This document shows, piece after piece, positions 23,851 through 64,000 of a stretch of DNA of 64,000 nt. The number at the start of each line of letters is the position of its first letter. The first letter of the stretch is position 1. Position numbers and translations under genes: made by a program. Where the stretch lies: assembly GCA_921293015.1 (NCBI GenBank), contig OV121083.1, forward strand, positions 29,628,908 to 29,692,907. The letters run 5' to 3'. The stretch is from Phorcus lineatus. Its lineage: Eukaryota > Mollusca > Gastropoda > Trochida > Trochidae. The notes below the pieces were generated by a model, which worked only from the letters and a program-made list of their open reading frames with translations, ran no database searches and was not told the DNA's origin.

Positions 23851-24442
23851 CTCTCTCCCATTAATACCTTACCATCGTTTGTGCTGACATGTTGAGTGAA
23901 AGTAAGACACGCGAAGCACACGTGATGAAAACGTTTTGACGGGAAACGCTCTTATTTGTGCAAGTTCAATCTAATATCGTGTAACGATTGTATCGTGATC
24001 GTACACTTATCGTGTGACTCCGTGCTCTGCACGAGCTGTCATCGTGGTCCTCAAGTTTAGTACTATAAGGGTTAATTTAACATAAGTACGATAAGAGTAC
24101 GATTGCAAGAGGGACAATTTATCGATCGTGTTGTGGTTGTGTGGTAGTTGTGCTGTTATCGTGTCCTAAGGCTGAAGCACGATCAACACAATCACAACAC
24201 ATACACTACACAATCACCACACAATCACTACACGATCGACACGCACACAACACGATTTTCTGAAATCAGGAACATGTTTGCGATTTGAAGGAATCATGTT
24301 GGACAAATTGCACGATCACTGTACGCACTGTACGGTAACCACACAATAACATCACAATAACCACACAACAACAACACGATGACTATACAACATTTTCGTA
24401 CAGCGATCGTAGTAGATCGTACGTAGTGTGAGTTGGGCTTAA

Positions 24443-26739: not shown

Positions 26740-27484
26740 TTAAGCCCAACTCACACTACGTACGATCGACTGCGATCGCTGTACGAAAGCGTCATGTAGT
26801 CATCGTGTATTTATTGTGCCGTTATTGTGTGGTTATCGTACAGTGATTGGGCTGATCATGCTATTTGTCAAACACGATTCATTCAAATTGCAAATATGTT
26901 CCTGATTTAAGAAAATTGTATTGTTGGTGTGTCGATCGTGTAGTGATTGTGTGGTGATTGTGTAGTGTATGTTTTGTGATTGTGTTCATCGTGCATCAGC
27001 CTTAGGACACGATAACAGCACAACCGCAACACAACCACAACACGATCGATAAAGTGTCCCTCTTGCGATCGTACTATAATCGTATGCATGTTAAATTCAC
27101 CATTATAGTGCTAAACTTTAGGACCACGATGACAGCTTGTACAGAACAACGAGTCACACGATGACTGTACAATCAGGATACAATCGTTACACAATATTGG
27201 ATTGAACTTGCACCAGTAAGAGTGTTTGCAATCAAAACGTTTCCATCACGTTTGCTTCGCATGTCTTACTTCAGTCAACATGTCAGCACAAACGATGGTA
27301 AGGTATTGATGGTAAGCGAGGGAGACAAGCGAATCGCCACATGCATACCGACTGTTTTGTCCAGTTATAGCATGATTAATTCCTATACAACCTCTTCCCG
27401 CCCTTCCAGCATTATAATGCAACATAAACTTCAACGCTGCATGCTTGGATAACATAATTGTCGTCGCACAAGCCTATGCAATGA

Positions 27485-30001: not shown

Positions 30002-31908
30002 ATATATATATATCCAGAGGATGTAGACAAGGAGATCCTATATCTCCATATATATTTCTACTTTGCGCAGAAGTCTTGGCAATAATGATAAGAACTAATC
30101 CAAAGATCAAAGGCATAAACATTGGTGATACTGAATATCTCATTTCTCAATACGCCGATGACACCTCACTTATCTTAGATGGTAGTGAAAAATGCTTACA
30201 GGCGACTTTAGAAACTCTGAAACAGTATGCTTCTATTTCATGATTAAAAATAAATGTCAACAAGACACAGGTACTATGGATAGGCGCTGCGAAAAACTCC
30301 AAAAAAAAACTTTGTCAAAACTGGAATTTAGATTGGAAGAATGACACCTTTACACTACTTGGTATAATATTTACGCTCAATGTAGCAGAAATGGTAGAAC
30401 GCAACTATAAAGATAAACTTAAAACCTTTAAGATATCTATGAATCAGTGGTTAGCAAGAGACATAACTCCACTAGGTCGCAACACCATTTTAAAAAGCTT
30501 ACTTTTACCTCAACTTAACCATTTATTTGCAACTTTACCAAACCCAAACAATCAAATGATAAAAGAAATTGAACAACTCTGCTACAAGTTTATATGGAAA
30601 AACAAACCCGACAAAGTTAATCGCGATACTATCACTAACAACTATGAACAAGGCGGAATAAGGCTTCCAGATATAAGATGTTTCATTCAATCACAAAAAA
30701 TATCATGGATAAAAAGGTTAAACAACTCCGATTCAAAAATAAAGACATTGCTGACAACAACCATTAAAAGTAATATAGACCGCTTTATACAAACATGTGA
30801 AACACACATAAACGAATCTGTAATAACACCCCGAACAAATCACTTTTGGAGAGATACATTAACATCGTGGGGAAGATTTATTAACAAAAAAGGTCAAAAC
30901 GCTAAAAAAGCTGAAGATGTCTTATCACAACCAATTTGGCAAAATGACAATGTCAAGATAAGTGGAAGACCTATCAATTATAAACATTACTCCTCTAAAG
31001 GGATCACTTACATAAACGACATCCTGGATTGCCATGGTAACTTTTTAACCATTGAACAATTAAGAAAACATTTTGGTTGCAAGACAAATTTTCTTGATTA
31101 CCAAGGGATAATAGAAGCTATAAGATATTATTATAGCACAAAAACTCTTAAATATCGAGAAAAATGGCAAAAAGAATTAAACGAGTTCATCAGCGAAAAT
31201 ACATGGGAAACCATAGAAAGATTAACATTTAAATCCTACAATAGTGCTAAACATTCATGGCTCCAATATAGTACATTGCATAGATTTCTTCCAACAAATG
31301 AGCTTCTAACAAAAATGAGATACAAAGAATCAAACAAATGCAAATTTTGCAAAACAGAAAATGAGTCAATTTTACATCTGTTTTATGATTGTAACTTTAT
31401 CAAATCTATATGGGAAAAATTGGAAGAATGGATACTGGGTACTTGAAAAAACAGGAACTTCCATCATCTTTTCTAAAAAGAACATCATCTTAGGATATTC
31501 CGAGAAACGAAACTATGTTCTGAATTTACTGACAATCATTGTGAAATACAACATATTTAAAATGAAACAACAGGAGAAAATCCCAAATTTTAAACATATT
31601 AAAGAGGATATTAAATCTGCATATTTTGTTGACCGATTTAACGCTTACACAAACTGTAAATATGATAGCTTTATGAATTTCTGGTCAATTTGTCATACTC
31701 TTATATGAAATATTAGATTAGTTTTTAATTATTACTATTTTCAACCTACTGTCAGAATTTATTTTGAAGACTGCCTATCCATTATATCTAGCATACATTA
31801 ATGAAATATTACTTGTGTAAAATTTGTTTATGTTGGGAACTGTTATTATAATATGTGTTTTTTTGTATGGAGTTTGGGAAAATAAAAAATTAAAAAAAAA
31901 AAAAAAAA
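30002..31908 (+). pseudogene. L1/Tx1-like LINE, 5'-truncated, with poly-A and target duplication
   Basis: Starts in the RT palm with SRGCRQGDPISPYIFLLCAE, intact QYADDTSLILDGSE, then (after one in-frame TGA at 30241) LKINVNKTQVLWIG, the thumb (30391-31446) and a C-terminal CCHC knuckle CKFCKTENESILHLFYDCNF, the L1/Tx1 type. A frameshift near 31440 separates the last 85 codons (to 31708). The 3' UTR ends in poly-A (31892-31908). A 13-base duplication AGAATCATACTAT flanks it (29989-30001 and 31909-31921). With only one stop and one frameshift it is among the younger insertions here. A shorter, about 96% identical copy lies at 44471-44875. Confidence 0.9.
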
Positions 31909-41395: not shown

Positions 41396-42946
41396 CTATT
41401 GTGCTAGATTTCAAAGGTAAATGCAAGCCCGCATGTTTTTACGTAAATTTTGCAAACCCACGCTGACACTTGTGCGCCGCTTTGCGAATCCGGCTGGCCG
41501 ATATGCAAAAAGATCGGCAGCTTTCGGCACCTTCCGTAACGTGACGTAATAGTGGCCCGTCACTCTCGCCCAGGCGTGAAGAACTGCAGTATGCCGATAT
41601 GTCAAGCAGTTCAAAAACATGCGTTTGGTTGGTATATTCCGACACTTGTGATATGTTTCTCCCCAAAATATACGTCAAAGATATTAAATCAATGTCGGAC
41701 GAAGTAAAAAGATCGTTTTTTATTTTTTTTCGATATTTAAAAATAAATTTATTTTGGATACGAAGCTATACACTACTGTAGGCCTATGGCTATGGTTCGT
41801 CATTTCGAAGTTTAAAATTCGTTGTGCCTTTGTCGTTGGGTTTATATTTTTTTATTTCCTTATTTGGTTGAAGGTAGATCTCTATTTTCTTCAATAAATA
41901 CAATAAAATGAATGTACATATTTCCTATAGGCCTAGTTACAAAATTCTAGGCAGTGTTTCAGATTAACGGCGCGACCGCATTCTCGCATGATTTCTAAAA
42001 AATGTCGCATGTGTTTTCAGCTTTATGCGCCTAACTGTCTCGTTTAATTGCTTAATTGTACAAATAAATTTTGAAAGAGCTGTCAACTTATCTTCATAGA
42101 GGATACAATAATAAACTGTCAGGGAATCGCAAGTCGTTATTGTTTACATGCTGTTACTATACCCTCCCTCCAATAACTTCAAGTTCCGGTTACCAAGCTC
42201 CATGTATCGACTGAGCACGGTATATAACAAGCCAACGGTATTTGGAGCTTGCGTTAAAAGGGGTGCACAAAGGAACAGCGACCTATATCATATCTGAAGT
42301 TATTGTTACTGTCTGCTTTCTTAACAGAGTCAAAACATTACGTGGTGTGTGTCAAGTAATTTGTACACATCATAACTCTACTTTATAATGTTTAAAAGAA
42401 CTTGAGTGTTTTTAGTTTACTTAATGTAATGTATTTTCAGTATTTTACCACAGCACGGTTACACGTCTATAATCAGAATTATTTGAGTAACTGAATTAAA
42501 ATTAAAGTTTAAACACCTCCTACATGGTTCCCATATTTTTTTCAATATAGGCCTAGCTATATCTTTTATGACCGGCTTTAATAATGAAATTATGGAAATG
42601 GAAATGTTTATGTCACAAATATACATAAACAATGTTGATCACATGAATTTAAAGAGATAATTAGCAAGTATAAGTGTTGAATTCTCTTTAGAATACAGAC
42701 AGTAATCCCCTTTTTGTTTTTTTCAATATCATGATGTAGATATATACCCCTTATGGGAATTTTACAAATGATAATTGATTGTTGGAAGGTGAATGAAAAT
42801 AACAATTAAAGTAAATATGTATCATTAGATTACAATGATTTTGGGAATACTTAGTTATTAGAAAACATGTATGCAACCACAGGGGCGTGTATCGCTTAGA
42901 AATAGCTTTAGAAAGACATATATACCCATAGACCCTACCCTACTAC

Positions 42947-42956
42947 TATATAAAAG
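42947..42956 (+). promoter_or_regulatory. TATA box in left arm
   Basis: TATATAAAAG lies 38 bases upstream of an ATG (42985), pointing inward. The same box is present in the right arm at 49172-49181 in mirror orientation. Its conservation in both arms and its spacing to the start codon make a promoter plausible. Confidence 0.5.
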
Positions 42957-42984
42957 GAAAGGGATGTAACGACCAAACCACCCC

Positions 42985-43328
42985 ATGCTCGAACAAAGTC
43001 AGTTTTCGCATCCAAAATAATTTTTCTGGACAAATTGTTCACTACGATTCGAAAGCTAAATGATTTCCCTACAAAACGAGCTATGGATTGTCAAAATCGG
43101 GTAATTATTTCAAAAGTTACATGCAACGACGTCCCGAAAATCGCTACCGCCAGATTTTCAGGCCAAAATCCCCACTCACGGAAAACAGCAAAAACTCACC
43201 GTTTAACATCGTTTATTGATTCCAGCAATGTTGACAACACCAATGGAGAGCTCGATTCGATCGGCGACATCGAACTACATGTTCACAATATGAGAACAGC
43301 ACCTAATTATTGTTTCTACGAGTGCTAG
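42985..43328 (+). pseudogene. left-arm copy of the inverted-repeat ORF (frame broken)
   Basis: Left-arm counterpart of the ORF at 48811-49143. The start ATGCTCGAACAAAG is present but a stop (TAA, 43018-43020) created at the short insertion cuts it off. The rest stays open in the other frame from about 43035 to the same final codons (YCFYEC then TAG). Only about three residues differ from the right-arm product over the shared part. Confidence 0.6.
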
Positions 43329-44470
43329 CATACATTTTATCAAAAATCATCTGCTTTGCTGTTGTCTTGTCTGCCATAACAGTGGCCTTGACATTCATTT
43401 GACCTCGTAGCCGCAGCAAATAAGCAACTGAGCGAACTCCGAACTCTGATCGAACTCCTCACACTCCTTTCAATACCATGTTTGTAAACATCACAACGTG
43501 GTCGAAAAAAGTTTCGGATTTATAGACGTGTCCACCTTACCACAAGCAACTGGAGCTGTTGTGTTTTGGAAATTAGTCACATATAGTAATTTAAGAGAGC
43601 CTTTTTTAGGAGTTTAAATTTTTATGTCTGAATCGGCAAAGGAAAAAACGATTCTCCAACTCCAGGCGCTTCGAATCATTTCTCTCCGCTGCTGGCGGTG
43701 CTGGGAATAATTAATGGACCGATGCTTTCAATTTACCAAGCCTCCATCAGGTAAGCATCGGCGTATACGATGTTTTCATTATATTTTTTTCTTTAATTGC
43801 CATCATTCTATCATTTTAACATCAATTTATTATTTTACTTTAGTGATTGTTTAAACATCTCTAAAATGTTATTTATAAATCGAATTACTTTGCCAATATG
43901 CCATAAAAAAACCCCAATAAGACAAGCTTAATTGATTATTGATTTTAGATGAAAATGCCATGTTTTTAAACATATGACAATAATATCAACTTTATCGATT
44001 AGGTATGCACGCCTTTTGAAAATTTGAAGGTGCTATATCTGTATATGATTATAAAATATATATATGTGAAACTAGAATAGGTAAATGATTAGTTAAATTA
44101 AGTTTGAAACCATTTTAACAAAAGTCTAAGTCATGATTTTTATTTTGGATTTCAGATGAAGGCATGTCACAGACATAAACACTAAGTATTTGATTGAGAA
44201 TTAATGTCATTTTAATGATCTGGTTAGCAATTTGATATAACACCATCAAATGTATTTACCAGCACTTCTATTTCTAAGCTGCTCAATATTTGATTTATAT
44301 TCAAGACTGTTAGAATACTAGTACCTGAATTATTCCCATTTTGTAATATCATATTTATACATGTAGATAATTTAAAGATTGAGCCTTCCGTATTACACTT
44401 ACAAACTGATGGTGACAGCTGGTTAATAGCCTTCTGGCTTTTTGTAATAAATATCTAATATATGATCATG

Positions 44471-44875
44471 ATATGAAACTATATATGTTCTGAATTTACT
44501 GACAAACATTGTGAAATACAATATATTTAAAATGAAACAACAGGAGAAAATCCCAAATTTTAAACATATTAAAGAGGATATTAAAACTGCATATTTTGTT
44601 GCCCGATTTAACGCCTACACAAACTGTAAATATGATAGCTTTATGAATTTCTGGTCTATTTGTCATACTCTTGTCTGAAGTATTAGAGTAGTTTTTAATT
44701 ATTACTATTTTCAACCTACTGTCGGAATTGATTTTGAATATAAGATTGCCTATCCATTATATCTTGTATACATTAATGAAATATTACTTGTGTAAAATTT
44801 GTTTATGTTGGGAACTGTTATTCTAATATGTGTTTTTTTTGTATGGAGTTTAAAAAAAAAAAAAAAAAAAAAAAA
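44471..44875 (+). pseudogene. short 5'-truncated L1/Tx1-like LINE copy
   Basis: Matches 31470-31905 with about 15 differences by eye: the last part of the ORF (NIFKMKQQEKIPNFKHI, YDSFMNFWSICHTL), the 3' UTR and a poly-A tail of about 25. A perfect 13-base target duplication ATATATGATCATG flanks it (44458-44470 and 44879-44891). It is inside the 6.37-kb element, so it arrived after it. Confidence 0.9.
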
Positions 44876-45083
44876 TATATATATGATCATGTACATATCT
44901 ATTCATTTGGGTAAAAGTTTCTAAAGAGAGTAGCAGAGCAAGTATGGTTTTAATTTGACAAGCACAAATACATGATGTAGCCTAGAATTATCCAAAAAAA
45001 TAATAATTTAAGAAATAAAAGGATGAAATGTACATTGTTTAAAATATAGAAGTGTTTTTTCAAAAAAGATTCTCTCTTTGCAG

Positions 45084-45148
45084 GCATGTGTCTCAATACA
45101 GGAGGAGAGAGTGGAGACACTTTTCTATCATTATTTGAAAGTTTTCAG
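45084..45148 (+). other. exon-like segment with strong splice sites
   Basis: A 65-base segment between acceptor TTCTCTCTTTGCAG and donor TTTTCAG/GTAAGCA. It is open in two frames. It would join upstream to a segment ending at a matching donor ATCAG/GTAAGCA (43750) and downstream to an acceptor TATTTTTCAG (45851), whose exon runs to an AATAAA at 45969. Coding capacity is doubtful; it could be a spliced non-coding RNA. Confidence 0.4.
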
Positions 45149-45851
45149 GTAAGCACAGCAGCCACAATCTAAAGATTTGGATCATTGCATGATATACTTT
45201 TTAATTTTTTTGTTAATATATTTCAGCAGATAATGTAGAGTATTAGATATATGCCACTGAGACATGATCAAGTTGAAATATGTTTGTCAAGGTAATTTTT
45301 TTTTAGATATATTACTTAATAGTTGTGTTTACCATGAGTGAGAAAAGGGAAGACAATTGTCACAACAGGTTCAATGGGAGGAGAGGTAGTGGAAGGGCCT
45401 AACCATGGGGGAAAATAAGGAGATAACAAGGGGGCTTTAGGGTTATTGGTTAGGTACCATGTCTTAAGCTGTTGTTAATGCTGTATGAAACTTTTTTGGT
45501 GAAAAGTGTCACTTTGTTTCTAGAGTTTGATTGAGCAATTCTGTAAAAGAGGCAAAAGAAATCCAACTTAAATTTAAAACCTATTTATTTCAGCTATCTT
45601 AAAAGCAAAATGCTGTAATCATAAATGTTTATACAACACACCTTTACCAATGTAGATTATGATTAACCAAATATTAAGTTCCATGATTGTTTGAATTATG
45701 AGAGCAACCACTTTGACTATACTTTGTTATTTTAAATGTTAGTTTGTAACATTAAATACAATTAATATTGTAGCACTTGAAGAGCTATAATGACAATGGA
45801 ACAATCTTTTTTTGCCTCATATTCAATTTGGTTCCAATTTATATTTTTCAG

Positions 45852-45990
45852 TTACAAGATTCAGTATCAAGAGGGGACAGTTTAATCTGGAGAATATCCT
45901 TGCTGCATACATGGAAAAGAATCTCTAATACATGGACACTCTTGAAAACTTTTCTGCTATTGTAATTCAATAAAATCTTCAAATAAAATA
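45852..45990 (+). other. possible terminal exon with AATAAA signal
   Basis: It follows the acceptor-like TATATTTTTCAG. In phase with the frame MCLNTGGESGDTFLSLFESF of the preceding exon it encodes LQDSVSRGDSLIWRI and then a hydrophobic end, stopping just before AATAAA (45969-45974). No known domain. Confidence 0.35.
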
Positions 45991-48721
45991 AATAAATTGA
46001 CTATCAATGAATTTATTTGTGAGGATTCTTTAATATGTTTTTGTATATATATACAGACATACAAGTGAGTCCCCAATTAAGAAAACAATACATTTACTTT
46101 CATCACTTATATCCAATTATATTGATTGTATTGAATTCAATTGATTCTTATTATTTGATATGTGATCATTTTAGGTGCCATTAGCCTTCAAAGAACTAAA
46201 AGTGTGTTTTGTAGAGTGTAAAATAGATATTTCATGTGTTTAATACATGAATTTCTAGCCACCTATGGATAACACCTCCCTTTTCTAAGTTTTAGTTTAA
46301 TACCATTAACCATGAGGAATTGTTAACACTTTGCATATCTTAGATGATCAGTAGGTTGTTCTTCATAAAAGCCTTTCATGATGTTTTTATGAATATTTAA
46401 AAGGTTGAGTTGATAAATTTCAAAGGATGTTCAATACTAGATACAAATACTTTTATGACTATAATATACACATCAATAATAGGCAAGGAAAGTTTATTTT
46501 GGCATAACTTGTAATGTGTGCTTAACAGTAGGTGAAATATGGGCTACAAATCAAATCTGTCTGTTTCGTGCTGGATATATAACAGATGATGTACAAAGAA
46601 TGTGTTTTTAGATTTTCAATTATAATTTCTACATCAAATATTCTATGCCAATTGAATTATACTGCAAGCGAATAAGTGATTCAATTTCACTTTTCACCTC
46701 ATCTAGCCTGACATGGGACGGTGTCCTTATATAATTTTGTGTACCAATTCCTTGACTACTAAGGATCTAAATTTATAAATTTGGTGACCTAAGAAAGGCC
46801 TCTAGGGCCAATCCTAAAGCCTATTTTCATTTTTTTCTCCTGAAGATGATAGTGAAGAAACTTGAATTTTTTTGTACATTCTAATGAGGATTCTAAACTA
46901 TATATTATATATCTTGTTTGTCCCTGACTAAAGTCACACAGGTCATGGCCTTATAAATATCTTCTTCTTTAATAATCTTAATAAAGCTAAGAAAGATGGA
47001 ATATTTATATGCTCCATAAGCGATTGGTATAACAATACTATAGCCTGGTGATAGTAGATTTTAAAGACTGATGAGCTCCAGGGTCATGACTCTATTCTTT
47101 TAAAACTGAGAAAAATATTACAGAACTGATGTGCCTCTGAGCCTGTGAACCTTGTAAAAAGGTTGAGTGTGTATCACTGTTAAGGTTTGTGTTATTTTAT
47201 CACGCTCAACCTAAATTAATTTCAGTGAGCTTAATTAATTTCTTTGAAGTGTAAAAAAGGTAGAGCCTTCATTCTAACCATTACAGACATGTTTATGAAA
47301 CTAAAGAGTTTATTGCTTGCAAGGCAAACAAATTCAGGACATTTTGGGGAAAATGCCCTCATACGCAAATATTCTAAAAAATATAACTAAATCAGATTTA
47401 TTGCATTTGAAACAGCAATTAAAGATACAAGTACTATGCCAGTCTGGAGATCTGTCACTTCAGACATGCTTTTTTTGACCTTATACATAATAAAATATAC
47501 TGATTACTTTAAGAATGAAATTTATTATGTTATCTATTGGACACACTGTTAATGTTTGTTCCTTTATTGGGGAGAGACTGGCCTTATTTTAGTAACTTAA
47601 ATCAAATCACCTTTTCATGAGGCATAAAAATCTACCTTTCAACTGAAGTTATAAGAAAAGTTATTTTTTCAACATGATTATACATAACTGTTAATAAGTT
47701 TTAATGCAGCATATTGTAACTTAATATGTTTTTGTTGTTTTAATCTTTTAACTATGAAAATCAAAATTGCTTCCAATAAAGAAAACTAAGGTAACCTTCA
47801 AAGCAAGGCATTGCATTTATGCCCCTAACCACCAGGGTGGTTGAACAGTATGAGTTACAAAATACAAGTCATTATATCAATGATTGCTATCCACATTTTT
47901 TATGATTTACATGATCTCTCTCCTGAGCCAAGCCAATATTGATAAAAATATATAATTCTGTCTGACCTCTGAAAATAAATATCCCCTTTTTTGTCGAACA
48001 CAGTTTTGATAATTTTAATCATATCACTATTGTTTGAAGAAATAAAATTAAATCACCTATCTAATTGTAACAGAGGTACTCTATAGTCTATATGGTATAA
48101 TGGTTAACTTATTTTATTAAATAATGTATCTGAACTGCACATCAAATATTCAACATGGAAGTAGTTTATCAAGAATTAGGAGTTGCTTTCAAATTTGCCT
48201 TTGAGATTCAAACCTCTTTACAAATTCTTTTAATTTTTGAATATTTTCTTTTCCAATTATAAGACATAACTGAGTTTATATGCTTTAATTAAGAAGGGTA
48301 GCGAAATCTATCAAGTTAATGTTGGTAACAGGTTGATATTATATATGCCATCACTTTTTGGAGGAAAAGATCAAAACAATATTTTTAGGTAAACCGAGTA
48401 AAAGTTGTTTATATATTCTTTAATAAAACATGAAAAATCATACTAATAAGTATATTGTTCTACATAAATTACCCAAAAAATTTTTTGTCAATTAAAGTTT
48501 ATGTTGCGATTTTCTAACGATTCGTTTGAAATTTTGACATTTGCCAGTCAAATAATTTCATATTTCTGGAACGTTTAAAAAAAATTATGATTTGACCCAT
48601 AGTTATAAAGAACGAGTTTATTAAATATTTTGGGCTCATTAAAACACACACGACTGCAGAAGGGAATTTAATAGAAAATACTCAATGTTAATTTCTACCA
48701 AATCCTATAATTTTTAAATTT
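45991..48721. other. AT-rich interior of the 6.37-kb element, no gene seen
   Basis: About 2.7 kb with no open frame of note and no recognised transposon. Uniform AT-rich, intron- or intergenic-like sequence. Confidence 0.45.
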
Positions 48722-48810
48722 ACTGCGGCTACGAGGTCAAATGAATGTCAAGGCCACTGTTATGGCAGACAAGACAATAGCAAAGCAGATGATTTTTGAT
48801 AAAATGTATG

Positions 48811-49143
48811 CTAGCACTCGTAGAAACAATAATTAGGTGCTGTTCTCATATTGTGAACATGTAGTTCGATGTCGCCGATCGACTCGAGCTCTCCATTGGT
48901 GTTGTTAACATTGCTGGAATCAATAAACGATGTTAAACGGTGAGTTTTTGCTGTTTTCCGTGAGTGGGGATTTTGGCCTGAAAATCTGGCGGTAGCGATT
49001 TTCGGGACGTCGTTGCATGTAACTTTTGAAATAATTACCCGATTTTGACAATCCATAGCTCGTTTTGTAGGGAAATCATTTAGCTTTCGAATCGTAGTGA
49101 ACAATTTGTATTTTGGATGCGAAAACTGACTTTGTTCGAGCAT
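48811..49143 (-). CDS. 110-codon ORF in the right inverted arm, unknown
   Basis: Starts at a true ATG (49143) 38 bases downstream of a TATA box (49181-49172) and ends at a TAG. It encodes MLEQSQFSHPKYKLFTTIRK, then NRVIISKVTCNDVPKIATAR, THRLTSFIDSSNVNNTNGEL and a Cys-containing end YCFYEC. It is basic and has no signal peptide or membrane segment. I recognise no domain. Near-identity with the left arm covers the whole repeat, so similarity alone does not show selection on the protein. Confidence 0.4.
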   Translation of the reverse strand: MLEQSQFSHPKYKLFTTIRKLNDFPTKRAMDCQNRVIISKVTCNDVPKIATARFSGQNPHSRKTAKTHRLTSFIDSSNVNNTNGELESIGDIELHVHNMRTAPNYCFYEC

Positions 49144-49258
49144 GGGGTGGTTTGGTCGTTACATCCCTTTCCTTTTATATAGTAGTAGGGTAGGGTCTAT
49201 GGGTATATATGTCTTTCTAAAGCTATTTCTAAGCGATACACGCCCCTGTGTATGCAAC

Positions 49259-50560
49259 ATACTTAAATTCATGCAGGCATTCTTCTCAAATTAAGTTTAT
49301 TATTCTGAATTTCTGATACTCACCTTAATTTATTTATGATAAAATTTCTGAGAATATTTAACTAAACACTTACACATATGTACATTTCTGGCATATTGCA
49401 TGTGTAATTTAATCAGAAAACATCAATTCAAAAATAACTTCTCATGCAAGAACTCTCTTGTTAATATAAAAACACTATCTCAATTGAAATATGATAAGTA
49501 GGAGAAGCACCAAAATCAGTGTAAGGAAAATCTGCCCTTAACAGTATCATTTCTGTTGTTAAAAAAATAAAATTTGCATTGATTTGGCTTTCTTGTAGGA
49601 AGTGAGTAATAGGGGGAAAAATCTCTTATATTTTTTTGGGGGGAGGTGGGGGTGTTATTGAAGTGATTTGTTTTGTAAAATATTTAAAAATATTAAAAAA
49701 ATATTTTAATTCAACATGGAAATTACCTGGACATAACTTCCACTTTTTGGACCTGCAATTATTATTGCCTGATTAATTGTTAGTCTTCTGACTTGAAAAC
49801 AGAAATATCTTAAATTTTTTGCAAAACTTAAATCACAGAAAGCAGATGATTTTGTAGATGTAGCAATAGACAGGCATATTGAATGTGTCTGCTAACATAA
49901 TCATCATTTAAAACAAATTTACTAATCAAACAAACTTACATGATAAATGTCAAACATATTTTCCCTATGTGTAATATTTTTCTATCAATATTCCGTTTGC
50001 TGTCCATTGCCTAGTTTTATCTTTGCTACTAGATATACTATAAATATGGAGAGAAAAAATTCATTCAGCTTCGCTGTCTGATTCTGCAAACTTGGACAAC
50101 AAAAAAAGATAAGAATTGATTGATGATATTAGCTTATAAACTATCCACCTAATGGCCGTATTTAGAGACAGTTACTGGGACCCCCTTACAGTAAACGATC
50201 GCAGTTTCAACAATAATAACATAATAAAATCCATTTGTCATAAGAAAAAATTCATAAAGATATTTCGTCAAAAACTGTTAGTTAGACAGTCGGACGTTTC
50301 GTCAATATAAACCCATAACCCAAGTTTCGGGCTTCATGAAATGAAATGCTGATTCAAATACGATTTCACTCGCACGTGGTCGGGTAATGGCCCGGAATAT
50401 TGATTATAAAATGGGAAAATAATGTATCGAATAGAATAAAGTTTTTTGTCGAATAAGTTCATAATTAGTTTTTGATAGCATATGTAGCATTATATGTTTA
50501 TTTCTAATGACAGTTACATCAAAATTCGGCTTTATAAACTCACGCCGAAAAACTCTCCCT
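49259..50560. other. AT-rich Tigger-like element interior, no gene seen
   Basis: Sequence between the nested element and the outer inverted segment of the Tigger-like element. No open frame recognised. Confidence 0.4.
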
Positions 50561-51877: not shown

Positions 51878-54745
51878 TAGGGGTGTCACGATTTGGTTCG
51901 GTACATCGAAAATCGAATCGGTAGAGGTACGATTCGATTTCAATTCTGTATGGATTCATTTCCATTCGATTGTTCAAGTACCTACTTGAGTAAATCAAGT
52001 TATTTTATCTAAAGCACATGAGAAAATAGTGAACATTCGCTGTCGTATCGCGTTTCCTTCATAGATTGACGTTGATTCATAAAAGTAAAGACATGCCCCT
52101 GCACTATATAACCAACGTCCGTGGATGGATTCGTATCCAAAACGATCTCATCCCTGTTGGATAATTTTTACACAAACACGTTCATAAATTTCAAAAAGGA
52201 ATTTGCTGTCACCAGATTTCAGGATTGTCTGTCAAATATGACACAATTAAATATTTATAATCTTTAATTATGCATGAAATATAAAATTATTCATTGTAAA
52301 CCAACAATATGAGAATCAATTTATTTCTTTATATGATTGCGTTTTCAAAATGTGTATATAACTCTTTTCATGTACGCGCAAGACTTATCCCATTTCATAT
52401 AAGTTATCATTTTCATATTTTCTATTCATATATTGGTTTGTCCTAAAATTAATAAATGCTATTTGCTTTAAAGAAAAATATGAAATACAATTTCAATACA
52501 AGTAAAGAAGTGAGCACAGCTCACATACACCCGCTTTAAACTATAGTCTGGCTTTCTTTGTTGGTCTTAAATTACCCTCAAAAAGCTCACTTAGGGATCA
52601 TGGTTGATAAGTGTATTAAGTTTGTTGAAGCTAGCATGTATAGTTTAGGAGATATGCTCAGGAAATAGCACTTTGTCAGATAGTCATTGTTTTAGTAACG
52701 TTTCCATGTAAAACGCAAAAAAATAAAAATAATTTTTTGGTCTCACCCTCAAGAGACGCACCAATATGGATAAGTGTATGAAGTTTGGTGATGATAGCAT
52801 GTACGGTTTAGAAGATATACTCCGGACAAAGGACTTAGTCATAAATTCACTGTTTTAGTCATGTTTCCATGGAAAGCGCAAAAAAAATAAAAATCATTTG
52901 TTGGTCTAACCCTCAAAAGGCACATCAATGGTTGATAAGTGTATGAAGTTTGGTAAAGATAGCATGTATAGTTATGAAGATATACTCTGTACAAAGGACT
53001 TTGTCACTGTTTAAGTCATGTTTCTATGGAAACCGCAAAAAATAAAAATCATTTGTTGGTCTAACCCTCAAAATCACATCTAGGGATCATGTTTTATAAG
53101 TGTATGAAGTTTGATGACGATAGCATGTATAGTTTAGGATAAATGCTCCGGACAAAGGACTTGGTCATAGAGTCACTGTTTTAGTCATGTTTCCATGGAA
53201 ACCGCAAAAAATAAAAATCATTTGTTGGTCTAACCCTCAAAAGGCACATCTAGGGATCATGGTTGATAAGTGTATGAAGTTTGGTGAAGCTAGCATGTAT
53301 AGTTTAGGAGATATGCTCCGGACAAAGGACTTGGTCATAGAGTCACTGTTTTAGTCATGTTTCCATGGAAACTGCAAAAAATAAAAATCATTTGTTGGTC
53401 TAACCCTCAAAAGGCACATCTAGGGATCATGGTTGATAAGTGTATGAAGTTTGGTGAAGCTAGCATGTATAGTTTAGGAGATATGCTCCGGACAAAGGAC
53501 TTGGTCATAGAGTCACTGTTTTAGTCATGTTTCCATGGAAACCGCAAAAAATAAAAATCATTTGTTGGTCTAACCCTCAAAAGGCACATCTAGGGATCAT
53601 GGTTGATAAGTGTATGAAGTTTGGTGAAGCTAGCATGTATAGTTTAGGAGATATGCTCCGGACAAAGGACTTGGTCATAGAGTCACTGTTTTAGTCATGT
53701 TTCCATGGAAACCGCAAAAAATAAAAATCATTTGTTGGTCTAACCCTCAAAAGGCACATCTAAGGATCATGGTTAATAAGTGTATGAAGTTTGGTGAAGC
53801 TAGCATGTATAGTTTAGGAGATATGCTCCGGACAAAGGACTTGGTCATAGAGTCACTGTTTTAGTCATGTTTCCATGGAAACCGCAAAAAATAAAAATCA
53901 TTTGTTGGTCTAACCCTCAAAAGGCACATCTAGGGATCATGGTTGATAAGTGTATGAAGTTTGGTGAAGCTAGCATGTATAGTTTAGGAGATATGCTCCG
54001 GACAAAGGACTTGGTCATAGAGTCACTGTTTTAGTCATGTTTCCATGGAAACCGCAAAAAATAAAAATCATTTGTTGGTCTAACCCTCAAAAGGCACATC
54101 TAAGGATCATGGTTAATAAGTGTATGAAGTTTGGTGAAGCTAGCATGTATAGTTTAGGAGATATGCTCCGGACAAAGATTTGTGACGGACGGACAGACGG
54201 ACAGATGGACAGACAGACGGACAGAATGAACGCTATATACCCCCGCTTACGCTGTAAGGCGGGGGTATAATTACCGTCAAAATGACCGGGTGCGAGTTGC
54301 GTTTTGGTGACGAAGTCACCGCAAGATTATTGTTAACTGCCATTTGATTGGACGTTGCACCTCTATCTTAGCCAATCATTATTGATGTTACTAACGAATG
54401 CTAGTGGTCTTTGATAAAAAAATGGCGGATCCAACATCGCTTTGCAAAACACATGGGTATAAATTTGCTACAGGGAGAATATATTTTGACATGTGTAAAA
54501 CCTACTACGCAGATATAAAGTGTAAAACAGGTTATACATAAATTCTTTTCACTCTTAACACGATCTTGATCTCATTCCCAACGACAGCATTCCTTATCTT
54601 GATGTTTGCGAAATTAAACTGTTTTTCCCCTACACAATTCGACTTTGTTTTTAGTTCAAGTAAATCGAATAAAAAATAATCGAATCGAAGACTTTGAATC
54701 GATAATCGAATCGAATCGAAGTGAAAGTGAATCGTGACACCCCTA
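51878..54745. mobile_element. non-autonomous hAT-like element
   Basis: Ends TAGGGGTGTCACGATT and AATCGTGACACCCCTA, flanked by the 8-base duplication TCAATAGG (51870-51877 and 54746-54753). Subterminal regions are rich in AATCGAATCG-type repeats (51905-51970 and 54650-54735). The interior has no transposase but contains a pearl-like tandem element. It is inserted in family D. Confidence 0.85.
52505..54270. mobile_element. pearl/Helitron-like element with 170-bp tandem core
   Basis: The left end has a GTGAGC-ACA-GCTCAC hairpin (52510-52524). About nine to ten tandem units of 170 bases follow, with start phrases near 52602, 52769, 52934, 53094, 53261, 53431, 53601, 53771, 53941 and 54111. Units from 53261 on are nearly identical and earlier ones diverge. 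After them come a GACG/GACA tetranucleotide tract (54184-54224) and a terminal hairpin with 11-base arms TATACCCCCGC / GCGGGGGTATA (54236-54269). This order matches the pearl elements described in bivalves, which are regarded as Helitron-related. Confidence 0.75.
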
Positions 54746-57125: not shown

Positions 57126-58140
57126 GTGTTTGCTATCAATATGGCTGGAGTGCGTAGAGTTGAATATTTGATGTCAAGAAAAGGAACCCCTCAGATTCTT
57201 TTGAATGGATTTGTCTATACCAGGAATAAGGTCAGACAAACCTGTACCCACTGGAGATGCATCGTAAAGACCTGCACGGGAGATGTTCAACTGTCGGGGA
57301 CTTCCTTCGAACACAGACAGAACACAACCATGCGGCAGATGATGACACCAGGCAGAAGTTTGTCAGCGAACTACGCAAGCAAGCTAGAGAGAAGACCACG
57401 CCAATGCCGACCTTGTATGAGCAGCAGCTTGCAGCAGGGTATGAAGATAATCTACACGTTCTTCCATCTTTCCCAAGCGTCAGCAGCGCCCTCTACAGAC
57501 ATCGCCGCAAGACCATTCCAGTGGTACCTAAGACCCTCCCAGAAGTGAATTTGGAAGACAAGTGGACAGAGACAAGTGATGGGCGTCGTTTCCTTCTACT
57601 TTCTGATGGTGAACAAGACAAGATTCTGGTTTTCTCAACTGCTGCACAACTCCAGGCCTTGCAGACTGCTGATACCATCTACATGGATGGAACATTCACC
57701 GCTTGCCCTGAGCTTTGGGATCAGATTTACATCATGCATGCCCGTTGCAACTCTGTGTCATACCCCTTAGTCTTTGCCTTGCTGCCTGATCGTCGAACCG
57801 CCACCTACGTCAGACTGTTCAGACTTCTCAAGGCGAAGATGTTGGAGGAACTGAACAGTCCACTGGCCCCAAGAAGGATACAGACAGACTTTGAGCTTGC
57901 CGCCATAAGAGCCATTGAGTCAAGAGTTTCAAGCTGCAGAGATCAAGGGATGCTACTTCCACTTCTCTCAAGCACTCTGGAGGAAGACACAAGACCTCGG
58001 TCTCGCAGTTGCCTACAAGGAGGACCCAGCTATGAAGCAGTTCATAAAGAGAGCAGCCGCCCTTGCCTTGCTTCCTCAAGACCAAGTTCAAGACACATCA
58101 ACAATAAAACATGTATCTAACATATATCTATATTTGTCAT
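57126..58140 (+). pseudogene. MULE transposase with N-terminal FLYWCH zinc finger
   Basis: Reads ILLNGFVYTRNKVRQTCTHW and RCIVKTC, then (after a one-base frameshift near 57270) TEHNHAAD, completing a FLYWCH finger. TPMPTLYEQQLAAGYEDN and an RRKTIP region lead into the catalytic domain: DTIYMDGTFTACPELWDQIY (first Asp), YPLVFALLPDRRTATYVRLF, IQTDFELAAIRAIES (second Asp), and after another frameshift near 57920 IKGCYFHFSQALWRK (the C/H-x-H block) to LLPQDQVQD. The C-terminal Glu region is truncated near 58130. FLYWCH-MULE fusions are a known invertebrate type. With two frameshifts and a short C-terminus it is probably inactive. Confidence 0.8.
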
Positions 58141-58440: not shown

Positions 58441-58458
58441 AAAAAAGAAAAAATGAAG

Positions 58459-58809
58459 GAACAATTACAGTTATTGTTAGTAATTATTTGTAAACTTACC
58501 TCTGGGATGAGCTGAGCCTTTCTTTCCGTCCCATGGACGTGACTGCAGAAGTCTTAATAAAAGTTAAAAAAAAAATAAAAAAACATCTATACATAATTAC
58601 CTTTGGTAGTATGCAGCTCTCCTCTTCTCTCTGGAGTTATCTCCCCTTTGACACTAGATGTGAGCCTCATATTCCGTATCGTACCCCACATACATCACCT
58701 GGAACACACGAGGGGAGGAATTAGTAAAAGCTTACATGGGAGGGAGTAAATTTGCTCATCCCAGCGGTAAGTTTACTAATAATTACTAACAATAACTGTA
58801 ATTGTTCCT
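58459..58809. repeat. inverted repeat with mirrored splice donors (DIRS 3' region)
   Basis: Arms of about 55 bases at 58459-58512 and 58751-58809 are inverted copies with few mismatches (GGAACAATTACAGTTATTGT on the left). Each arm contains a consensus splice donor facing outward from the loop: CAGAG/GTAAGT on the minus strand and CAGCG/GTAAGT on the plus strand. CTCTGGGATGAGCT recurs once more at 58832. Its position after the recombinase gene suits a DIRS terminal or internal complementary repeat. Confidence 0.6.
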
Positions 58810-59345: not shown

Positions 59346-60249
59346 TGAGATATGCTGAGCCGCTACCAACGGACCCAGTTCACTGATTCCATCCAACGTG
59401 GGCGTGATGTCGCGCAGGTAAGATGAAATGAAAGCATTGACATCTTTTCATTGATACGTTTTCACTAACTGTTCAATTGACACTGATTTCCATGCCGATA
59501 GGGAGGTCGCTAGAGCTCTAATTTCATGAGGCGAAAACTTCTAATTTACTGTATCCTGATCCACTGCTTGATAAGCGTATATAACTGTTTTCCTCAACCA
59601 AGATGCTATAGTAATCTTTGAAATTTCAGTATCCAGCCAAGTCTTGCAGGATAGAAAAAGTCTCCTTCTAGAGCATCTAAAACATGCTGTCCTTTGTAAG
59701 TACCATCTAAGAGCTCTTATAGGACAAAGCAGACGATTCTTATCTGAATGAGAAGTGGAATGCGGTAGTGCCGGAATTCGATAAGCCCTCGCTCCCAGAG
59801 GGCCCGCTGACGAGGATTGATTCTTAGCCACAAACTTCGGTAGCGCTCGACATGTCATTTCTTTATAACCACTCGCAAACCTTATTGAAGAATTGTCAAT
59901 AGCATGTAACTCTGAAACCCTAGCTGCTGAGGCGAATGCTATAAGAAAAGCCATCTTGAAGGATAAAAAGTTTAATGAAGCCGTTTGCAAAGGTTCATAA
60001 GGCGCTTTGATAAGAGATTGTAACACCAAACATAAATCCCATTTTGGAAAAATAGAAGGTGAAGAGATATCCTTGATTTGAAAAGCCTTGATCAGTTTAT
60101 GTAAGGAGCAATCCGCACCAACTGATAATCCCTGAAGATCGCATACCGATGCAATGGCTGAGCGGTACCCTTCAATAATCCCATGAGTTTCCTAACAGTT
60201 CTCAAATAAAGCAAAAATTCTGCTATCATTGGAATTGAAATGTCTTGGT
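59346..60249 (-). pseudogene. DIRS-like tyrosine recombinase
   Basis: Terminal gene of the element. AFQIKDISSPSIFPKWDLCL leads into SLNFLSFKMAFLIAFASAAR with VSELHAID, which contains the first catalytic Arg (near 59917). The domain continues through CPIRALRWYLQRTACF, and after a frameshift near 59530 SPHEIRALATSLSAWKSVSI gives the HxxR motif (about 59525). The frame then runs on to about 59350. The enzyme would integrate circular cDNA without making a target duplication. Frameshifts and a stop upstream of 60250 suggest it is inactive, though its motifs are well kept. Confidence 0.8.
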
Positions 60250-62097
60250 CTAGGCACTATCGCTGCTCTCTCCATTTGTAGAAAACTTTCCACTTTGAAT
60301 CGTAGAGACTTGCTGTTGAAGGTCTAACAGACTGGGACATAGCTGTTGAAGATCCCTCGCTGAAACCCTTACTTGCAAGGGATTCCTGGATAATCTCCAT
60401 ACGTGTAGATTTAGGAATGCTAAGTTCCCGTTAGACACTCCCGATTGAGGTTGACGTAACAGACGTTCCCACAGAGGTAGTCGGAGTGGAACATCGGTCA
60501 ACAGATCCAGAAGATTTGGAAACCAAGCGCGTGTGGGCCATGAGGGAGCCACAAGATAAACCACACAATTGTGAAGAGCTATCTTTGCGATTACATCCGG
60601 TAGAATCTTTACTGGCGGAAAGACGTAGGCAATCATTCCTTCCCATGATATGGATAGTGCGTCTACCGCCCAAGCTGGAATTGGGCTGAAATAAATCAGA
60701 AGTTGACAATTCCTAAGAGATCTATTGTAGGTGTTTCCCACCTGTCCGCTATGATCTGGAAGGCTTCCTTGTGCAAGGGCCAATTCTGTTGGAAGTAACT
60801 GATTCTTTTTGGACAGAGAATCCGCCTAATGCGTTTAGCTTCCCTGGAATATGCCTGGCTTTTAGAGTTATCCTGCACTGGTCCACTAGACGAAACAACA
60901 TGCGGGTTAGATCCATGAGATTCCTTGTTTGTTTATATATGCAACAACTGTCGCATTGTCTGTGGCTATCATCACACTGGTCCCGTACAGACGACGCTAC
61001 CATTCCTTGAGGGCCCTGATCACTGCAAGCATCTCTAGAGCATTCATATGCAACATTGATTCCCGACCTGTTCACAAGCCCTGGGCCTGAAGGTGATCTA
61101 CGTGAGCTCCCCAACCCTTGCGAGAAGCGTCTGAAAAATTGTGAATCGAGGGGGCGGATGCATGAATTGTGTTCCCGACAGCACACTGTGTTCCTATGTA
61201 AACCATAACAACTCGCTCCGCACGTGGTGAGGGCATATAATCGAACAATCCAGAGAAAGAACTCTGTTGGCATTGAGCCAAACCTGAGTGTGGCGAAGGT
61301 TCAGTCGACCCCTGTATGTATAATCCTGAATTGAAGTAAGGCAGCCTAGTAGTGACATCCACTTCCTTACCGTCGCCGATCCCAGATGCAACAGAGACAC
61401 TATCAAACTCCTGGTGGCAAACCAACGATCCGTGATGGGAAAGATGAAACCTTTCTCTGCATCTAGAATCGCTCCTAGAAACTTGATCTGAGATGTAGGC
61501 ACGAGTTCCAACTTTTCCGGATGTACAATCCATCCCAGATGCATAAATCATCACACGTGTATCATATATTTTGTCTGGATGTTGAAAGTCGTGGCCGAGA
61601 CGTGTCTCCCCTGAAAATCGTCCAGGTATCCATGTACGGCAATGCCTCTGAGATAAAGAAAATGAAAAATTGGTTTGATTGTCATGGTGAAGAGCCAAGG
61701 CGCTATTGACACCCTGAAGAGTAGGAGTTGAAACTGAAATCTCCTGCCATTCACTGCGAAAGGAAGATATTTCTGAGAATACTTGTGGATTGGGATGTGC
61801 AGATAAGCATCCTTCAGATCCATGCTGATGAACTTTGAGTTTGGCATGATCAACTTACTGACATTTCGTAAGGATTCCATAGTGAACTTTGGGGGATAGC
61901 AGAGATAATCCTTGTTTAGAATCTTTAAATCTATGATCATTCTCATGTCTGTTGAATCACGCTTGGGAACCAGGAAGACTGGAGAATAAAAACCTCGTGA
62001 AGTGTCCAGAGGGGACACTTAATTCAACCACTGCCTCCTTCAGAAAACGCTGCTCTATGGCTAGAAGAGCCGCATTCAGATGATGACCCTGTAGAGT
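60250..62097 (-). pseudogene. DIRS-like reverse transcriptase/RNase H
   Basis: It begins LNAALLAIEQRFLKEAVVEL and, after a frameshift near 62020, runs YSPVFLVPKRDSTDMRMIID, FISMDLKDAYLHIPIHKYSQ, PFAVNGRRFQFQLL and GIAVHGYLDDF (catalytic YLDD at 61613-61630). Connection: LGWIVHPEKLELVPTSQIKF. RNase H: IHNFSDASRKGWGAHVDHLQ (about 61140-61090), a frame-shifted ALEMLAVIRALKEW and VMIATDNATVVAYINKQ. Then ELALAQGSLPDHSGQVGNTY and WPTRAWFPNLLDL, as in DIRS/Ngaro polyproteins. Three or more frameshifts break it. Confidence 0.85.
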
Positions 62098-62795
62098 AAC
62101 ATACATGGCATATTACCCGATTTCAGGCCGTTCGGGTATGGAAAAAACCCGATTTTAAGAGAAGTGCTAAGAATATTTTTCTGAGGCTGTGTTACCTATT
62201 TTTAATCTTCAACTTGATAAAATTTCAAACTTATCAATAATTTTTAGTTGAAATTAAAACAAATATTTGTCAGAAATACAATCGCAAGAGCACGTTGCTA
62301 TTGTACACCAGTGATTCGAGAATTAATTACCGAGTAGTTTTTATTTCTATAGGATAGCTGAAGCTCGATTAATTCCTTTTAAACTAATGATAAGATATTA
62401 CAGTATCATTATGATAGACTAATAAAGATCGACAACATACCTCTTAAACTTCAAAAAATTTAATAATCGCACAAATGACCGAAACTAAACATTGAAGTCG
62501 TGAACATTATCTTACAGGAGCTTTAAAAAGGAAACACCGTTTGGAAAATCAATGCCTTTTCTTAACGACAAATAACATTAAAATTATGCTGTCATGTCCA
62601 TGATTTTCTTTACGATTGTCTTTCTTTGAGTAATATATAAATAAATAAAATCATTTATTGTATGTTTCATTATTTTAATAACATACGAATAACTGCAAAA
62701 CAGATTATGGGATATTTAAACATTTTATGTTGTATCGGTAATATGTTGCATGAAATTATGACGACCACGTGTTTCGACCAACCTGTAAAGTTTAC
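62098..62795 (-). other. AT-rich gap between gag and RT, possible intron
   Basis: About 700 bases of AT-rich non-coding sequence separate the gag frame, ending at TTTACAG/GTTGGT (62795), from the RT frame, starting after TTACTCTACAG (62098). The boundaries fit a GT-AG intron on the minus strand. The reading phase would not be continuous, so the two frames would be separate ORFs or need another shift. A random AT-rich insertion is the alternative. Confidence 0.35.
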
Positions 62796-64000
62796 TTCAG
62801 CAGTCCGGAGTCGTATTTTCGTGTCCGTGGGCATTTCCAAGTCGTAAGGATCTATAGGTGTTGAAACGGTTGGCGGAAAGTCAACTTGCTGACCCCCTAC
62901 TATCCTTCGTTTGCTGTCCCTGAGATGACGCAGGTTGGCGCTTCCTAGACGAGTAGTTAGCCCTGTCAAAGGCAGGAGGGGAGTTGGGGAGTAGCTGAGA
63001 GGGAGCCTCTGTTGCCCCTGAAAGCATCACGCTGATGTGACTGACCAATGAGAGCTGACACTAATCTCGGATTCAAGGTCCTAGAATTCTGTGCATCCTT
63101 TTGTGCAATAGCCTGGCCACACTGCAGGTTGAACATCGATTCTGATCCCAAGGGTTGTTGAAATAATTCTTCCTTGGAATCCTAAGGGAGATTTCTCACA
63201 CCCCCAGGCAGATGAGACTGTTCAAGAGCAGTAATCCCACCCAAGGTACCCAGCTGTGTTTGAGTCGCATCATTCACTGCATGATATATGACATCCAGGA
63301 AGGAATGTGCCATAGCAACCTACTCTGTGCTCATTACTACTAGTGATTGTGGCTTGACACCAGTATAGTCCTGAAAGGTGGGAGGTAATAGTTGTCTAAC
63401 ACCTGCTGCAAACCAGTTAATATAGGAGGGAATGTCAACAGCACTTCTAGCCGCCATATCAATATCCTTCAAATCTTTCCGTGAAAAAAAAATCTTGTCC
63501 AATTGTTTTCTCTGAAAACCCTTCGCATCCAATCGGGCAAAATCCCAATCAACATCAGGGGATGAAGACGAAAACACACGGTCATGAATGACATAAGCTT
63601 GCTTAAGTGGGAGTCGAGGGAGAGCCAACACATCCTTTGCCTTGGTCAGGTTGTTATTGATTAGATCAAGTGCAGGTTTAACTACAGATGAATAAGATAA
63701 AGACTGCTTGGGAGGCCGTTTAGGAGGTAGTATACCCACAGTGCCCAGCTCCTCTGGCAATACTTGATCCACTGAAGATGGTTGTGTACAAGGTTTAGGC
63801 CTATGCAAAATGTCAATCTTGTCAACAAAAGATCATTCAGGTACTAAGTTCGGACCCAACAGATCGGCGGGAGGAATAGTTATTAAACCCTCATGTGAAT
63901 ACAGCTTGGCATCCAAGGGAAACTTTAGATCGGCATCCTCATCAGTAATGATAGGCAAAATCGGAGGGTTGAACACATCCACAAACTCCGTAGAAGGCCC
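62796..64000 (-). pseudogene. DIRS-like gag protein, partial at window edge
   Basis: First gene of the element, entering from beyond 64000. Frames chain in order: EFVDVFNPPILPIITDEDAD, LYSHEGLITIPPADLLGPNL, a stop near 63832, then VLPEELGTVGILPPKRPPKQ, LALPRLPLKQAYVIHDRVFS, DVDWDFARLDAKGFQRKQLD, NWFAAGVRQLLPPTFQDYTG, a frameshift near 63320, VAMAHSFLDVIYHAVNDATQ, FNLQCGQAIAQKDAQNSRTL and LGSANLRHLRDSKRRIVGGQ. The pattern fits the structural protein that precedes RT in DIRS elements. At least one stop and two frameshifts are present. Confidence 0.65.

Follow-up and report, generated by a model that had tools for sequence, protein, structure and literature searches.

The segment between positions 42878 and 49250 of the analyzed DNA, a 64-kb stretch of the Phorcus lineatus genome that we refer to as the window, is one insertion unit, a cut-and-paste DNA transposon of about 6.4 kb. 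In the reading that we prefer, with a probability of roughly 0.6, it is a non-autonomous transposon with long inverted arms, whose core is captured host DNA that was already CpG-poor at uptake, and whose arms carry a 110-codon open reading frame that does not function as a gene.

The element has inverted arms and exact CAC...GTG ends. We confirmed the mirror ends described in an earlier note on this sequence (CACAGGGGCG...CGCCCCTGTG at 42878 and 49250), as well as the 8-base duplication TATGCAAC, which stands directly outside both ends on the plus strand (42870-42877 and 49251-49258). It is because both the ends and the duplications match that we regard the segment as a single insertion unit, and this combination of inverted ends and flanking target-site duplication is the one that characterizes class II TIR elements. 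If equal base frequencies are assumed, an exact 8-base match at both outer borders would be expected by chance about once in 65,000 cases. On the plus strand of the window, TATGCAAC occurs six times, including the two copies at the element borders and four that are far off, and none inside the element. The end motif CACAGGGGCGTGTATCGC is present in the whole window only at the two element ends, even with up to three mismatches allowed, while shuffled sequences (n = 100) are expected to contain none. Searches of viral contigs with the end motif and with an arm stretch gave no matches for either, and no paper was found that combines the end motif with the word 'transposon', a weak result given that articles do not spell out the sequences of most families. 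A 14-base end pattern matched at least 118 stretches in prokaryote genomes, and the 80 listed among them carry bacterial titles; as we estimate about 1900 matches by chance, this pattern is a poor query.

The left arm comprises 544 bp (42878-43421, plus strand) and the right arm 533 bp (48718-49250, minus strand), in agreement with the earlier estimate of more than 500 bases. The two arms differ by four substitutions over 533 aligned bases and by one 11-nt gap, and all 25 CpG sites are retained in either arm, with observed/expected ratios of 1.14 (left) and 1.17 (right). The predicted RNA fold of a single arm is unremarkable (z = -1.49, with 9 of 100 shuffles folding equally well). Two other inverted pairs were seen in the window, namely 23858-24442 and 26740-27312 (about 585 bp, 86% identity, about 2.3 kb between them), and a MITE-like 56-bp pair at 58457-58512 and 58754-58809 (96% complementary, 241 nt apart).

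Scanning the whole element against Pfam in six frames, with stops read as X and E-values up to 1, returned no families. The interior thus contains no recognizable transposase, as had been proposed, within the limits of a scan that an unfamiliar or spliced transposase could escape, and therefore the element is probably non-autonomous. A search of the window against Rfam also gave no matches. The earlier description of a non-autonomous element with TATA-driven reading frames holds in part: a long-armed DNA transposon without a transposase domain and with inward-reading boxes is present, whereas translation of the reading frames is doubtful. The candidate superfamilies are hAT, P, Mutator and Zisupton.

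Promoters in long arms had been regarded as abnormal, a view that is not supported: the arms of Mutator elements are described as containing promoters, which in MuDR serve two convergent genes (excerpts of PMC3310237, PMC6446971). According to parts of the literature, Mutator-like elements, including Pack-MULEs, combine long arms, 8-10-bp duplications, arm promoters, and interiors of captured host DNA (PMC5225508, PMC3310237, PMC6446971), and the arms of Phantom range from 18 to 613 bp (an excerpt of PMC6446971). The element resembles this group in its long arms (533-544 bp, more than 100 bp) and in its 8-bp duplication, which is within the 8-10-bp class; it differs in that duplications of the family are most often 9 bp and in that no transposase is present here. 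Neither a transposase nor shared ends assign it to the MULEs. A Phantom-type MULE remnant is located 8 kb away at 57126-58120 (plus strand), with matches in overlapping frames to FLYWCH (PF04500, E = 6.5e-07) and MULE (PF10551, E = 6.7e-05, below the Pfam cut-off). The end motif of the element was not found near this remnant with up to three mismatches, the remnant's own ends not being delimited, and no relatives of the remnant were found in viral contigs.

For the P superfamily, sections of the published descriptions report that Galileo arms measure between about 300 bp and 1.2 kb and can expand, that non-autonomous copies of Galileo exist (PMC3573991, PMC4168063), and that P elements generate 8-bp duplications (PMC1562414). 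However, Galileo duplications are mostly 7 bp, the arms of Anopheles P elements are only 27-31 bp long, and neither THAP nor P transposase domains were detected in the six-frame Pfam scan of the element. A duplication of 8 bp is usual for hAT and is also described for Zisupton/Dileera (KDZ) in the consulted portion of PMC12730594. The element shares this length with both groups, and in the case of KDZ it has no transposase that could be compared. In addition, CAGGGG occurs two bases into its end. A CAG start is typical of hAT ends; however, the 8-bp duplication fits only with the end CACAGGGG, and placing the start at CAG would result in unequal 8-bp flanks. The six-frame scan revealed no hAT transposase domain in the element. 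Most likely, the element is a further member of an already known type of mobile DNA, and no new mechanism is required.

Other repeats in the window include a DDE_1 transposase remnant at 1647-2606 on the plus strand (PF03184 in 2211-2606, E = 4.1e-07), which we take to be pogo/Tigger-like, and a tandem array at 52574-54177 with 9.6 copies of a 170-bp unit (91% matches). By eye, the frames at 59541-63808 (minus strand) resemble a DIRS-type retroelement, in which only RVT_1 at 61551-62018 was confirmed (E = 2e-10) and the recombinase-like frame has no Pfam match.

Between the arms, we distinguish a left rim (43422-43800), a core (43801-48399) and a right rim (48400-48717). Both rims are unique sequences and, like the arms, they are CpG-normal, with observed/expected ratios of 1.12 for the left rim and 1.32 for the right rim (6 CpG at a GC content of 0.24), so that arms and rims together span 1.12-1.32. 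The AT-rich core, 4.2-4.6 kb in length and probably of host origin, lies between these CpG-rich arms and rims, with a GC content of 0.29 and 16 CpG (observed/expected 0.17). Positions 44000-48300 have the lowest ratio (0.13) among 597 intervals of 4300 bp, and the best-fitting CpG-poor segment near the element is 44051-48300, with a rate of 0.12 versus 0.84 outside. The core contains the window's longest run without CpG (1844 bases, 44723-46567); the second longest (753 bases, 49241-49994) starts at the right end of the element. GpC in the core is normal (1.09). The TpG/CpA ratios are 1.27/1.23 in the core, 1.01-1.12 in the arms and 1.24/1.19 in the whole window, the core being barely above the window. 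Methylated CpG is lost through deamination, and the pattern in the core fits such a loss. In a bivalve, methylation is described as mostly intragenic (part of PMC3840415). Sequence immediately outside the element shares the low CpG and high AT content of the core (CpG ratios of 0.34 in the left 500 bp and 0.24 in the right 1000 bp), and at a distance of 1500 bp either side has returned to normal CpG values.

The core contains the 5'-truncated 3' end of a LINE with a poly(A) tail (44475-44875, plus strand), which is 92.4% identical to 31504-31905, a segment adjoining a LINE reading frame that encodes a zf-RVT domain. It is flanked by its own 13-bp duplication ATATATGATCATG (44458-44470 and 44879-44891, plus strand), and therefore represents a separate, later insertion into the interior. 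The LINE has 3 CpG (0.50), compared with 13 CpG (0.14) for the rest of the core. This retention suggests that the CpG loss in the core is older than the LINE, as far as only three CpG sites permit.

As a lead, we note a possible three-exon transcript at 43714-45964 (plus strand) with a 71-codon frame and putative exons ending at 43750, spanning 45084-45148 and starting at 45852. The CAG/GTAAGC donors are at 43750 and 45148, and AATAAA is at 45969; the acceptors before 45084 and 45852 were placed by eye and are absent from the acceptor scan. A spliced frame of 71 codons appears in 3.5% of 2000 resamplings under a short transcript model and in 24.7% under a long one, which is within the range of chance, and its product gave neither homologues nor a Pfam family in our searches. 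With no domain found and a frame of this frequency, we rejected a coding interior.

The sequence TATATAAAAG occurs exactly twice in the 64-kb window, once per arm and reading inward, at 42947-42956 (plus strand) and 49172-49181 (minus strand, from 49181). Each copy starts 38 bases ahead of an ATG (42985 and 49143), as previously noted. The description of the 110-codon frame as intact on the right and broken on the left was also correct: the right copy (48811-49143, minus strand), for which no homologue was found, is probably not translated, and the left copy (42985-43020, plus strand) consists of the ATG and 11 codons followed by a stop that results from the 11 extra nucleotides. In the left arm, the downstream frame stays open as the continuation of an upstream frame that has no ATG. 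In both arms, an additional ATG with an immediate stop (42964 and 49164) is located between the box and the ATG of the 110-codon frame. A TATA-like box alone is common, being present in 24% of 5000 resampled arms, and the window has 55 matches to TATAWAWR per strand. Among 1000 first-order resamplings of the arm, 10 contained an ATG frame of 110 codons or more, and 43 a stop-to-stop frame of 115 or more.

Could the arms nevertheless represent a real duplicated small gene, in which a promoter and a 110-residue protein serve the element, for example by binding DNA at its own ends? The window's only copies of TATATAAAAG are the two arm boxes, the frame itself is infrequent among the resamplings, and a box with a frame of at least 110 codons within 60 nt appeared in just 1 of 5000 resampled arms, in a test picked post hoc. 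Being rarer than chance, this combination counts against dismissing the frame as meaningless. However, homologues of the product were absent among proteins sharing three words with it, no loci of the frame were found in viral contigs, and a profile search with the 110-residue product, which the earlier note had suggested, gave no Pfam match. Transcription typically starts about 28-34 nt past a TATA box, and the expected leader before the ATG is about 4-10 nt. Translation is doubtful because the ATG follows so closely after the expected start. Moreover, the ATG is surrounded by C at -3 and +4, which is a poor start context, the left copy is broken, and two of the four substitutions between the arms are within the frame and both alter the residue. 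We infer that the frame is not a working gene, and consider the duplicated gene very improbable. Less probable still is a version in which each arm is a full expression unit (a TATA promoter with the 110-residue gene) on a transposase-less transposon, the arms being unmethylated in the germline and the cargo methylated in a gene-body-like manner. An arm promoter without the 110-residue protein is plausible.

For a captured core in a non-autonomous transposon, we envisage that a transposase made elsewhere would move the element in trans, and that the transposase sites, and perhaps promoters directed inward, would lie in the arms, as they do in Mutator elements. The core would derive from non-coding host DNA resembling a gene body, acquired when two ends of the family came to enclose it. 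CpG would have been lost from the core before the LINE entered it, and the arms would have reached near-identity afterwards, either via recent movement or by one arm copying the other. We favor capture of depleted DNA over loss in place because the LINE keeps its CpG and each arm keeps 25, small as these numbers are. On the other hand, loss in place, or a shared origin of core and flanks, is possible because the immediate flanks are also CpG-poor, and the element could have entered a CpG-poor tract by chance. A possible but rather unlikely alternative is an old resident element, in which prolonged germline methylation of the interior extended into 0.5-1 kb of the flanks, while the arms and rims, as promoters, escaped methylation and gene conversion kept the arms identical. 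Such a history would account for the CpG-poor near flanks, for the normal CpG content beyond 1.5 kb on both sides, and for CpG-rich arms and rims bearing the box and a splice donor. It agrees poorly with a target-site duplication still identical at all eight positions, and with a core and flanks that are low in GC as well, beyond CpG alone. The similarity of the core and near flanks in GC and CpG would equally be expected if a short arm-bearing element had inserted twice, separately and in opposite orientations, with native host DNA left in between; each arm, together with its rim, does make up a CpG-normal block of about 0.9 kb. This scenario, close to the earlier suggestion of cargo between two small solo elements, is improbable, as the exact 8-bp duplication is common to the outer ends, inner ends are absent with up to three mismatches, and there is no inner copy of TATGCAAC.

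If other copies confirm the captured-core reading, the element would define a family of long-armed transposons in this species and provide a clear case in which CpG content separates the transposon ends from their cargo. In genomes with methylated gene bodies, such a CpG contrast could be used to date captured DNA and to trace its source.
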